Virus record (IMG/VR): IMGVR_UViG_3300035703_000008
Location: 144,933 to 208,932 of that record
DNA length: 64,000 nucleotides
Source: a virus
Reading direction: 5' to 3' (one strand)
In this document: positions 4,576 to 49,576 of the stretch, piece after piece
Numbering within the stretch: position 1 is the first letter of the stretch
Layout of the letters: every line of letters starts with the position of its first letter
Position numbers and translations under genes: made by a program
Notes under the pieces: generated by a model
Told to the model about the DNA's origin: nothing
Seen by the model: only the letters and a program-made list of their open reading frames with translations
Databases searched by the model: none

Positions 4576-4910
4576 CAGGCAGTAAGGGCTCGCACAGGCC
4601 GATTTCTTGTGCCCTAGACCTGGACTTCGAGTCGCAGGGATGGAAGACCCACCGCGCCAGTGGGCACTCAACCACTACCCGCAAGGATGAAGATGGCAAA
4701 GACCTGCCGTTTGGTTGTTTGAACAGGATATAAAAGGCCCAATGAGGGGAGCAAAACCCCAGGCACATGCGTGGTGACGGCGTACTACACATGTGTTGCC
4801 GTTGTGATAAGACGGAGTGAGCAGGTACCGGACAACCGCCTGCTTGGAACAAGTGCGTTCCGTAGCTCTAACGCTGTGTGACTGTGCAACTCGGATGATA
4901 CCAGTTTTTT

Positions 4911-5030: not shown

Positions 5031-5038
5031 CTTAAATA
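5031..5038 (+). promoter_or_regulatory. T4-type late promoter box
   Basis: CTTAAATA matches the T4 late consensus TATAAATA. The start codon at 5045 is six bases after the box. Confidence 0.6.
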
Positions 5039-20186: not shown

Positions 20187-20276
20187 CTATCAACGTATTC
20201 TGCGTTTTATGCGGCGATTAATACCCACCGCGTACCGGATAGAACCCGGATCGGACTTCTTTTAAGGAGAAAACAA

Positions 20277-20792
20277 ATGGGACGTCCTCTCAAGATCAAG
20301 AAAACTACAACCAAAGATGTTGGTTTTAACAGCTTTGACCAGCTAGAAAACCCAGTTTACCCGGCCACTCTCAACACTACCCAGTTCTTGGGTGTAGTAG
20401 GTGGCGCCAACGCTTCTGTGGCCACTACCAGCTATCCAGTGGTCAAGTGCCAGGTTTTTGGCGCCGGCGAAAGCGCCGAAGAAGCAGGCTACATCATCCG
20501 CCAAAAAGGTTCTACCACATATCTGGTGTATGGTCAGACTTCGGGCAACACCTTCCAGTGCATCTTGGCCAATCAAGCCACTGGAAACCTCACAGCCGGC
20601 AACATGAACATCGCTATTTTTGCCGGCGACAGTTCTGATATCCTTGTCAAGAAGCTCACAAACAAATGGGCCTTAGACTACAGCGACAATCGTTATGTGA
20701 TCAACTTCTTCAGCGACGAAGGAACTGAGATCAAATCGGGAACACGCGGCAACACCAACCCCCTCGCGATCACAGAAAACTATACTTCTTAA
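20277..20792 (+). CDS. putative virion structural protein, 171 aa
   Basis: Not assigned to a named family. The protein begins with a basic segment (GRPLKIKKTTTK) and continues as a Gly/Ala/Thr/Asn-rich beta domain (TTQFLGVVGGANAS, KCQVFGAGESAEEAGYIIRQ, TYLVYGQTSG). A strong AAGGAGAAAAC ribosome binding site and its own late promoter with a long leader suggest high-level late expression. Such small abundant proteins near the fibre cluster of marine T4-like phages are generally virion components. It is followed by a hairpin that doubles as terminator and ribosome-binding-site mask for the next gene. Confidence 0.6.
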   Translation: MGRPLKIKKTTTKDVGFNSFDQLENPVYPATLNTTQFLGVVGGANASVATTSYPVVKCQVFGAGESAEEAGYIIRQKGSTTYLVYGQTSGNTFQCILANQATGNLTAGNMNIAIFAGDSSDILVKKLTNKWALDYSDNRYVINFFSDEGTEIKSGTRGNTNPLAITENYTS

Positions 20793-42157: not shown

Positions 42158-42165
42158 TATTTAGC
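42158..42165 (-). promoter_or_regulatory. late promoter box, left-facing
   Basis: Minus strand GCTAAATA, five bases before the ATG at 42152; the next upstream gene is divergent, so the message would be leaderless. Confidence 0.55.
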
Positions 42166-47486: not shown

Positions 47487-47846
47487 ATGGGCAGTGTAAA
47501 CGTACTCAACCCCAACGTTGATCAGACCGTGCGAGTCTACGACAACTTCTACAGATTTGAAGTGGTAGTAGATGCCAATACCTGGGATCAGGTCTACAGC
47601 TATTTCCGATCAGTGTATTCCGACGATGCTATTGCTAACAATTTTGCTACTTCACTGTTTCGCATCGCTGAAAAAACTGCCACACCTGTGCTGACCTTGC
47701 TGCAGAGCATACAAGGACAAAACTCTGTGCAACTCACAGCCACAGTGTGTTATTATCTCAATGGACTACGCAGTCCATCCACGCTCCTGGGAGTGAACGG
47801 AAGGGTCACACCCAATATCTGGGCGGCCAGGAATGTGCTGTCGTGA
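47487..47846 (+). CDS. conserved small virion-assembly protein, 119 aa
   Basis: Not named. It sits between the tube/baseplate-type gene and gp4. Sequence: VRVYDNFYRFEVVVDANTWD, VYSYFRSVYSDDAIANNFAT, SLFRIAEKTATPVLTLLQSI, a pattern of strands then helices with no charged cluster. It overlaps gp4 by four bases (GTGA). Proteins of this type and position recur in marine T4-like phages, probably in head or tail completion. No domain beyond that is identifiable. Confidence 0.6.
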   Translation: MGSVNVLNPNVDQTVRVYDNFYRFEVVVDANTWDQVYSYFRSVYSDDAIANNFATSLFRIAEKTATPVLTLLQSIQGQNSVQLTATVCYYLNGLRSPSTLLGVNGRVTPNIWAARNVLS

Positions 47847-48274
47847 GCAAGTTCGCCCAAGGCATCTACAAGGTCACCAACACTGACAAGTATGCGGGTC
47901 GCCGCGAACCCAGGTATCGTTCGGGTTGGGAGCATGCCTTCATGCGATTCTGCGACAGCAACGACAACATCATACAGTGGGCATCTGAATCTATATCCAT
48001 ACCCTATCGCCATCCACTCACGGGCAAGATGACCATGTATGTGCCTGACTTCCTTGTGATGTATCGCGACAAAAACAATCAAGTTCGAGCTGAAGTGATC
48101 GAGATCAAGCCCAAGAAGCAAAGCGTGATCGAAAGCCGAGCATCGGCACGAGATCGTGCCATAGTGGCTGTGAACTATGCCAAATGGGACGCTGCTCAAA
48201 AATGGTGCCGACGCCAAGGGCTCACGTTCCGCGTGGTCACCGAAGATGATCTGTTCGTAAATGGAAAGAGATAA
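47843..48274 (+). CDS. 4: gp4 head completion protein (nuclease-fold)
   Basis: T4 gp4 is needed to finish filled heads before tail joining. The 143-residue protein contains KYAGRREPRYRSGWEHAFMR, WASESISIPYRHPLTGK, MYVPDFLVMYRDKN and VIEIKPKKQSVIES, the PD-(D/E)XK layout (Glu in GWE, PDF, E-I-K). The GTG at 47843 overlaps the upstream stop (GTGA). T4 gp4 is 150 aa. The downstream stop codon is part of a TAAATA box, after which an HNH gene is inserted. Nuclease activity in vivo is suspected but not established for the family. Confidence 0.88.
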   Translation: MSKFAQGIYKVTNTDKYAGRREPRYRSGWEHAFMRFCDSNDNIIQWASESISIPYRHPLTGKMTMYVPDFLVMYRDKNNQVRAEVIEIKPKKQSVIESRASARDRAIVAVNYAKWDAAQKWCRRQGLTFRVVTEDDLFVNGKR

Positions 48275-48277
48275 ATA
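48270..48277 (+). promoter_or_regulatory. late promoter box overlapping gp4 stop
   Basis: GATAAATA contains the gp4 TAA; it is the left copy of the TAAATA that brackets the HNH gene. Confidence 0.5.
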
Positions 48278-49038
48278 ACATTGTAAAGGATTATACAATG
48301 TTATTCGAAAACAACAAATATACTAAGTGGTATAATTTAATAGTTCAAAATGCACAAAATAGGATGACGGACTTATCCTATTTTGAGAGACATCATATCG
48401 TTCCAAAATCTCTCGGCGGCACAAATAATAAAGAAAATTTAGTAATGCTTACAGCCCGAGAGCATTATGTTTGTCACCTGTTGCTGACTAAGATGCTCTC
48501 TGGAGATTCAAAAAGAAAAATGATTTATGCATTTTGGCAGTTATCAAATCAAAAGAATTCAAGTCAAAAAAGATATTGCCCAACTAGCAAAACATATGAG
48601 ATCGCCCGAAAAATGTTTGCAGAGTGCCATTCTGCCAGAATGAAAGAAAATCATCCCTTAAATGATGAAAACAATAAACGCAAACATCAACTTGGAGTTG
48701 ATAAACGCGGACCAACTTCGGTTAAAGGAGCAAAGCGGCCAGAATCAATGAAAGAGAAAATGAGAAATAGAGTATGGACAGAGAAGGCAATACAAACAAG
48801 ATTAGATAATTGTCTCAAGAATGCAGCCGCAAGAAAAGGTAAATCCTGGTCCGAGAAAAAACGACAATCTACTCTTGACACTTATATAGAAAAAAATATA
48901 GATATTGCTTTAAAAATTATCCCTTTGCACGAATCTGGAATGAATAATCTCCAGATATCAAAAGAATTAGGAATTAGTTGGGAAAAAGTCAAATATACTC
49001 TGAAGCATAAAACGGATTTTCTGGCGTATCGGCCGCGG
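48278..49038 (+). mobile_element. HNH homing-endonuclease insertion between gp4 and gp16
   Basis: The segment between the two TAAATA copies (48272-48277 and 49039-49044) holds only the HNH gene. Removing it together with one copy would place gp16 four bases after a TAAATA that includes the gp4 stop, the common arrangement at other junctions. Confidence 0.55.
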
Positions 49039-49041
49039 TAA
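48298..49041 (+). CDS. HNH homing endonuclease (free-standing)
   Basis: The HNH core is FERHHIVPKSLGG (His32, His33), NNKENLVML and AREHYVCHLLL, a standard metal-dependent nuclease fold. The C-terminal half looks like NUMOD-type DNA-binding repeats (KGAKRPESMKEKMRNR, RKGKSWSEKKRQST) and ends in a helix-turn-helix-like SGMNNLQISKELGISWEKVK. It has an AAAGGA site 11 bases upstream. The DNA is clearly AT-richer than gp4 and gp16, marking it as acquired. It lies between gp4 and gp16, bounded by TAAATA on both sides, and is expected to spread by cutting phages that lack it. Confidence 0.92.
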   Translation: MLFENNKYTKWYNLIVQNAQNRMTDLSYFERHHIVPKSLGGTNNKENLVMLTAREHYVCHLLLTKMLSGDSKRKMIYAFWQLSNQKNSSQKRYCPTSKTYEIARKMFAECHSARMKENHPLNDENNKRKHQLGVDKRGPTSVKGAKRPESMKEKMRNRVWTEKAIQTRLDNCLKNAAARKGKSWSEKKRQSTLDTYIEKNIDIALKIIPLHESGMNNLQISKELGISWEKVKYTLKHKTDFLAYRPR

Positions 49042-49044
49042 ATA
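49037..49044 (+). promoter_or_regulatory. late promoter box before gp16
   Basis: GGTAAATA contains the stop of the HNH gene; the gp16 ATG is four bases downstream. Confidence 0.55.
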
Positions 49045-49048
49045 CGCG

Positions 49049-49576
49049 ATGACCAAGAAACTGGAAGAACTGTTTAACCTACCCACCAAAGATGATGATG
49101 CCGAGCACGATGGCATCATAGATTCAGATCCTGCCGAACCCGGCAATGATTTACAGGCCAATCTCCCGCTGTTGCCTGAGAGTCTCGAAGCTCTTGACAA
49201 GATCGAAGCTGCACTTCCTGCGGTACGTGGTCTAGATGCCAGCGATGCTGAGATGGACGAACTGGCAGCCAAAGCCACCAAAGAGTTCGACAATCTCATG
49301 GATCTAGGCATGAATGTAGACAGTCGCTATGCATCAGAAATTTTCTCGGTGGCCAGCCAGATGCTGGGTCATGCCATCACGGCCAAGACTGCCAAGATGA
49401 ACAAAAAACTGAAAATGATCGACCTGCAGATGAAAAAACTCAAGCTAGATCGCGACGGCAACGACAACGATTCGACCTTGCCTACGGCACAAGGGCATGT
49501 GCTTGATCGCAACGACCTCTTGAACCGCTTGCTGGGCAAACAGCCCTCGGGCAGCTCAAACGATAAAAAAAGCTAA
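49049..49576 (+). CDS. 16: gp16 small terminase subunit
   Basis: Gp16 recognises the genome and regulates the gp17 packaging ATPase. The 175-residue protein (T4 164) begins MTKKLEELFNLP, the usual start of the family in marine T4-like phages, has an acidic segment, a central helix pair (LAAKATKEFDNLMDLGMNVD, SRYASEIFSVASQMLGHAI) that forms the ring oligomer, and a Lys-rich coiled coil (AKMNKKLKMIDLQMKKLKLD), ending HVLDRNDLLNRLLGK. It is separated from gp17 by about 8 kb, unlike T4 where the two adjoin. The box-to-ATG distance is four bases. Confidence 0.85.
   Translation: MTKKLEELFNLPTKDDDAEHDGIIDSDPAEPGNDLQANLPLLPESLEALDKIEAALPAVRGLDASDAEMDELAAKATKEFDNLMDLGMNVDSRYASEIFSVASQMLGHAITAKTAKMNKKLKMIDLQMKKLKLDRDGNDNDSTLPTAQGHVLDRNDLLNRLLGKQPSGSSNDKKS

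Follow-up and report, generated by a model that had tools for sequence, protein, structure and literature searches.

The window analysed here, a stretch of 64,000 nt that forms bases 144933–208932 of the 208,932-base IMG/VR virus record of an uncultured T4-like phage, contains an HNH gene lodged between a gp4-like and a gp16-like gene and bracketed by two copies of TAAATA, the putative late promoter box. This raises the question of where the two boxes came from, and of how the intruding gene could be expressed late while gp16 keeps its own late start. The first-pass annotation had placed the gp4 stop in one TAAATA (48272) and the HNH stop in another (49039), with gp16 following four bases on, and the sequence confirms all three placements. 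The features of the segment are listed below (L numbers designate comparison loci).

47843–48274 (+): gp4-like head completion/closure gene, GTG start; PHROG 218 (head closure), E 1.3e-41
48272–48277 (+): 5′ TAAATA box, the predicted HNH late box, with the gp4 stop TAA (48272–48274) inside it; kept in L006 and L081
48274–48305 (+): hairpin with arms 48274–48285 and 48294–48305; RNA fold −11.1 kcal/mol
48298–49041 (+): HNH homing endonuclease gene, 247 aa; PHROG 655 and Pfam HNH
48742–49020 (+): C-terminal domain of the HNH protein, presumed DNA-binding, common to GIY-YIG endonucleases at the same junction
49034–49048 (+): possible short stem, CGCG/CGCG, round the 3′ box; stems are enriched here in empty junctions
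49039–49044 (+): 3′ TAAATA box, the apparent ancestral gp16 late box, with the HNH stop TAA (49039–49041) inside it; bases 49045–49048 separate it from the gp16 ATG at 49049
49049–49576 (+): gp16-like gene, probable small terminase; PHROG 16202 (unknown function)

The HNH gene, its neighbours and the TAAATA boxes

The HNH product matches the phage HNH homing endonuclease family PHROG 655 (E 4.4e-40) as well as Pfam HNH, is 33% identical to T4 MobD, and carries an HNH signature (ERHHI...N...H) that is invariant across four homologues. The gene is A+T-rich, with a G+C content of 35% compared with about 50% in its neighbours. Relative to its homologues in L081 and L006 it has a dN of 0.17–0.29 and a dS that is about 1.5 or saturated, and it appears to be under purifying selection and not decaying. 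Its distribution is patchy: among the loci compared, an HNH gene of this type occupies the junction only in the window, L006 and L081, with more distant ones in L083 and L159. Judged by its sequence, the segment is a free-standing, "selfish" HNH homing endonuclease gene situated between two virus-assembly genes. It resembles T4 MobD and other PHROG 655 members in its HNH domain, overall similarity and free-standing organization, but it lies at a different site, and T4 mobD is counted among the genes read from upstream promoters (PMC2988022).

Assignment of the gp16-like gene as a probable small terminase rests on weak matches to terminase small subunits, found for 6 of 16 homologues (best E 0.0014); a profile search of PDB gave 0 matches supporting this identity. 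Because the HNH gene lies directly 5′ of this gene, it could be suggested that it encodes a packaging partner of the adjacent terminase and not a homing enzyme, as in HK97, where an HNH nuclease acts with terminase (discussed in PMC10448857). We regard this as very improbable, as the HNH gene is absent from most relatives and is thus not conserved beside the terminase in the HK97 manner, unrelated GIY-YIG genes occupy the same spot in others, PHROG 655 is annotated as a homing endonuclease family, and an allele pair and a deletion scar described below reveal gain and loss at this position.

TAAATA is over-represented twofold in the window, with 31 copies against 15.4 expected and no shuffled sequence reaching 31. 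Twenty-two of the copies lie 3–40 nt 5′ of an ATG that opens an ORF of at least 80 aa, while the 14 other orderings of its letters occur 0–16 times before such ORFs, the highest counts being those of the overlapping words AAATAT and ATAAAT. The record also encodes a gp55-like late sigma factor (profile match E 1.6e-24), although the profile matches cellular sigma factors as well. We consider the identification of TAAATA as the late promoter box to be well founded but not proven. In T4, late transcription starts about 6 nt after the box, and we take both the promoter role of TAAATA and the +6 start from that phage. Two independent hints agree with this start: the sixth base after the box is a G in 56 of 65 leaders of a new type (see below), exactly where their first stem begins, and the ATGs of leaderless-type genes in the window fall at roughly this position too. 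The spacing between TAAATA and ATG falls into two classes, one of 4–7 nt without a Shine-Dalgarno sequence and one of about 17–30 nt, usually with one, and the first of these suggests that some late mRNAs may be leaderless. Boxes of this short-spaced class, before the ATGs of long ORFs, are at positions 5033, 12664, 19186, 49039, 55442, 56176 and 59372 on the plus strand and at 42163, 37654 and 20151 on the minus strand.

Empty junctions and the origin of the two boxes

Relatives were collected from IMG/VR by one scan with gp4 and one with gp16, giving about 155 loci. Insert-free relatives might have carried both boxes at this place, or none, but in 57 of the 58 distinct empty junctions that have a box, the interval from the gp4 end to gp16 contains exactly one TAAATA, placed a few bases 5′ of the gp16 ATG. 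The proposal in the first-pass annotation that deleting the segment restores a standard late-promoter junction also holds up well: excising 48278–49044 leaves GAGATAAATACGCGATGACC, which has the same form as the natural empty junctions of L093, L127 and L144 (..GCGGTAAATACCGCATGAC..). The 3′ box at 49039 therefore corresponds, as far as can be read from these alignments, to the late box that precedes gp16 in the empty relatives, and its retention before gp16 agrees with the view that control of gp16 is unbroken. Among these loci no empty relative comes close to identity with the window phage; the flanks of the nearest one are about 75% identical in DNA sequence.

Stems of at least 4 bp surround the box in 35 of the 58 empty junctions, compared with 21 (maximum 29) when the partners are shuffled. 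We considered a functional gp16 hairpin in the window but do not include it in our explanation, as the window copy folds no better than shuffled sequences (z −0.28). The two-box layout is not universal, since L006 has the same HNH gene and no box directly before gp16. In L006 (6150–6210) the usual start of the gp16 homologue is ATT and not ATG, with a TTG four codons on, and the nearest box, TATAAATA, is about 47 nt upstream of the gp16 start, within the HNH gene.

The 5′ box has a different context. It overlaps a 12 bp hairpin (z −5.97; 0 of 200 shuffles as stable) in which the Shine-Dalgarno sequence AAGGA (48286–48290) forms the loop and the AUG (48298–48300) is part of the 3′ arm. With the start position assumed from T4, the predicted late +1 is G48283, inside the 5′ arm, and folding gives the AUG a pairing probability of 1.0 in a read-through RNA and 0.4 in an RNA starting at 48283. 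Both sequence features of a late translational switch are therefore present as predictions, in that the hairpin would hide the Shine-Dalgarno sequence and the AUG, and the late RNA would lose the 5′ arm. The stem is exact in L006, and in L081 it shows one compensatory change (U-A to C-G) and one mismatch; this hairpin type is known from these three sequences only.

A similar arrangement has been described for I-TevI, I-TevII, I-TevIII, T4 SegB and Aeh1 MobE, in which the late promoter is so placed that the late RNA lacks the 5′ hairpin arm, while in longer transcripts the hairpin hides the Shine-Dalgarno sequence and start codon (PMC2988022). A switch of the I-TevI/SegB/MobE type is thus predicted by folding for the window HNH gene, which differs from those examples in lying between late-type virion genes, in having the gp4 stop within its box, and in having its own stop within a second box. 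By eye, the HNH leader and the empty junctions share TAAATA only, which is too short to judge any likeness to the I-TevI-type operator and homing site.

Because the 5′ box overlaps a hairpin kept in L006 and L081, and because other endonucleases at this site bring different box-plus-leader modules, one of which is also present at other loci, it is most likely the intruder's own and part of an HNH expression cassette that probably comprises a late-switch promoter and an RNA hairpin. The suggestion in the earlier annotation that insertion copied or used the late box must accordingly be divided. Copying on insertion is improbable here, as the 5′ box probably came with the cassette, while literal use of the box is seen in other lineages (L073 and L159, below). 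That interpretation as a whole is supported in part, with the single-box relatives and the retained gp16 box on its side and the origin of the 5′ box corrected.

Gain, loss and exchange of endonuclease genes at the junction

Comparison of L043 (occupied) with L019 (empty) provides an instructive allele pair. The two are 97.9% identical over 2.4 kb upstream, without a single difference in the first 365 nt of gp4. Next comes a single replaced tract, made up of the final gp4 codons, the insert and the opening codons of gp16, beyond which identity resumes at 92%. Both L043 boxes lie inside the replaced tract, with new sequence and not the recipient box at both ends, which points to import with co-conversion of the flanks and argues against copying of the recipient box. 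The pair shows that a different endonuclease, a sister element, arrived here within a tract that has a box at each end; no close empty/occupied pair was found among the loci for the window's own HNH element. Conversely, L025 (5436–5480) contains a deletion scar, in which the last codons of an L043-type endonuclease and TAAATA directly follow gp4 and the gene itself is absent. The allele pair and the scar together indicate that endonuclease genes are both gained and lost at this junction.

These observations bear on the possibility that insertion duplicated the gp16 box, as a target-site duplication, or that the gene landed in a pre-existing stop-in-box, in either case leaving two copies of one TAAATA. 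Some empty junctions do have the gp4 stop inside their single box (L007, L093, L127 and L144), and splitting or duplicating such a box, as found in L007, L093 and L127, would give something resembling the window; a close relative whose empty junction ended in GAGATAAATACGCGATG would strengthen this reading. However, the nearest empty relative, L001, has its gp4 stop outside the box, the 5′ box and its intruder-specific hairpin are kept in L006 even though L006 is without the 3′ copy, box modules of other kinds accompany the other endonucleases found at the site, and the L019/L043 pair represents replacement and not duplication. We therefore think duplication unlikely, and target-site duplication was rejected as the main reading on the strength of the L043 replaced tract, the other box modules and the empty junctions.

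The gp4–gp16 junction is a hot spot for both HNH and GIY-YIG genes. L003, L016, L033 and L118 have GIY-YIG genes behind a different box-hairpin, while the GIY-YIG genes of L043, L084 and L174 and the HNH gene of L083 stand behind another, structured leader. The GIY-YIG ORF of L073 (5433–6044) and the HNH ORF of L159 (2981–3609) use the gp16 ATG itself, immediately after the ancestral box, as their start codon, and gp16 restarts through an ATGA overlap or from a Shine-Dalgarno sequence and GTG; these two lineages have taken over the gp16 box and start codon. In the window, as in L081, L043, L083 and L174, the stop of the intruder falls within the gp16 box. In another clade the place of an endonuclease at the junction is taken by a gene on the opposite (minus) strand that encodes a hypothetical protein of about 496 aa (L002:2655–4142, L004:5438–6925, L005:5828–7315).

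A further possibility is that the 5′ TAAATA arose by chance, simply because gp4 ends in a stop codon, and that the HNH gene is a promoter-less cassette read only from upstream transcripts. TAAATA does contain a stop codon, gp4 often ends in TAA in the empty relatives, and seven T4 free-standing endonucleases have been described as promoter-less cassettes (PMC2988022). Nonetheless, we find this quite unlikely, since L006 and L081 retain the box along with a stable hairpin (z −6), which would shut off those same upstream transcripts, and since TAAATA occurs near the start of every other junction endonuclease whose 5′ end was inspected, with the exception of the truncated L052, which has a degenerate TAAGTA.

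The occupants also share a part of their proteins. The C-terminal part of the window HNH protein, which matches the helix-turn-helix family PHROG 3855, is 66.7% identical over 93 aa to that of the L043 GIY-YIG protein, and the HNH protein of L083 is 76% identical to the L043 protein in its C-terminal part. This common domain suggests an exchange of catalytic heads, with the presumed DNA-reading domain and the insertion site retained, and it fits recognition of the gp4–gp16 junction, in line with the proposal of the first-pass annotation that the recognized sequence may include gp4 or gp16.

We consider it quite likely that the HNH cassette entered the gp4–gp16 junction with its own late box and hairpin, that the ancestral gp16 box was kept, and that the element spreads by cutting empty junctions. 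This explanation draws on the gene family, the single box in empty relatives, the fold, its conservation, the hot spot and the sister-element allele pair as they are read from sequence, and predicts the promoter activity, start site, translational switch, target and cutting. The HNH late box (48272) would double as part of the 5′ arm of the hairpin, such that gp4 read-through transcripts would fold the hairpin and yield no enzyme, and RNA started about 6 nt after the box, without most of the 5′ arm, would allow the HNH gene to be translated late. The old gp16 box (49039), its TAA serving as the intruder's stop, would preserve the late start of gp16, and loss of this box together with the intruder would be costly to the phage. 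The enzyme would cut empty junctions, recognized via its C-terminal domain, and the tract would be copied across.

Embedded promoters of downstream genes are known for segG, segA, segE, mobB and mobC (PMC2988022). As in those genes, overlap with the promoter of the downstream gene would favour retention of the intruder, but in the window only the gene end overlaps and the stop codon is itself part of the promoter box. Homing endonuclease genes of different nuclease classes have also been reported near terminase and other essential genes (PMC10448857), a pattern like that of the different classes beside the probable terminase gene at the gp4–gp16 junction, although that report makes no mention of promoters or leaders and does not describe this junction of these uncultured phages. 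Alleles of this one junction form a natural series, with empty, occupied, scarred and promoter-takeover forms. From it one may read, and test, how a late operon can accommodate selfish endonuclease genes with no harm to the essential gene next to them.

A structured leader before other homing endonucleases

The leader of L043 and its counterparts has a constant order: the box, five bases, a G (predicted +1), a six-pair stem P1, an inner stem P2, UCUAAY, a Shine-Dalgarno hairpin, AUG and UAYUUA. The set was assembled from a pattern scan of IMG/VR together with the loci from the gp4 and gp16 scans, filtered for the box and at least 5 of 6 P1 pairs, and comprises at least 71 distinct copies (with box), nearly all 5′ of GIY-YIG or HNH-like ORFs, these families being judged by eye from N-terminal sequences. 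Locations include the following.

L043:2440–2486, L083:2935–2981, L084:2653–2700, L174:2937–2983: leader at the gp4–gp16 junction
L181:2933–2978: leader before a GIY-YIG gene at another locus
G000, about 1041–1108 (L162:1041–1087): leader before a second HNH gene of the window's genome, outside the window
Many of L186–L303: leader before GIY-YIG or HNH genes

Across the stems, 98.3% of cells pair and there are 35 double-sided changes compared with 7.3 in shuffles; the covariation score is 0.449 against 0.126 (0 of 500 shuffles), and slid controls collapse. The scan pattern selected conserved bases and was blind to P2 pairing, whereas copies with fewer than five P1 pairs were filtered out; covariation in P2 is accordingly the cleaner evidence. 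We conclude from this covariation that the leader is a real structured element. A covariance model finds it in L043, L083, L084, L162, L174 and L181 and gives no match in the window. The leaders have no match in Rfam 15, blastn of two example leaders against isolated phages and a strict-pattern search of GTDB genomes returned none, and no description was found in the open-access literature.

We lean towards the view that standard expression modules, beginning at a late box, are common to the late-acting homing endonucleases of uncultured phages and pass between unrelated catalytic families; at the gp4–gp16 junction either the structured leader or the window's box-hairpin travels along, and what moves would be a cassette of promoter, leader and enzyme. 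The leader RNA, absent from Rfam 15, would then link late promoters to homing endonucleases, and the late-switch logic of T4 would extend to uncultured T4-like phages.

UAUUUA (or UACUUA) follows the start codon of the leader in 53 of 65 cases, at an offset of 3–5 nt and in different reading frames. We do not claim that the box pairs with UAUUUA, as folding gives the AUG no more pairing in read-through RNA (0.55 against 0.56) and the UACUUA variants would break a pair. Elsewhere in the window, Rfam matches on the plus strand identify a Polynucleobacter-1 RNA at 4587–4720 (118 bits) and a freshwater-2 RNA at 20191–20279 (69 bits).
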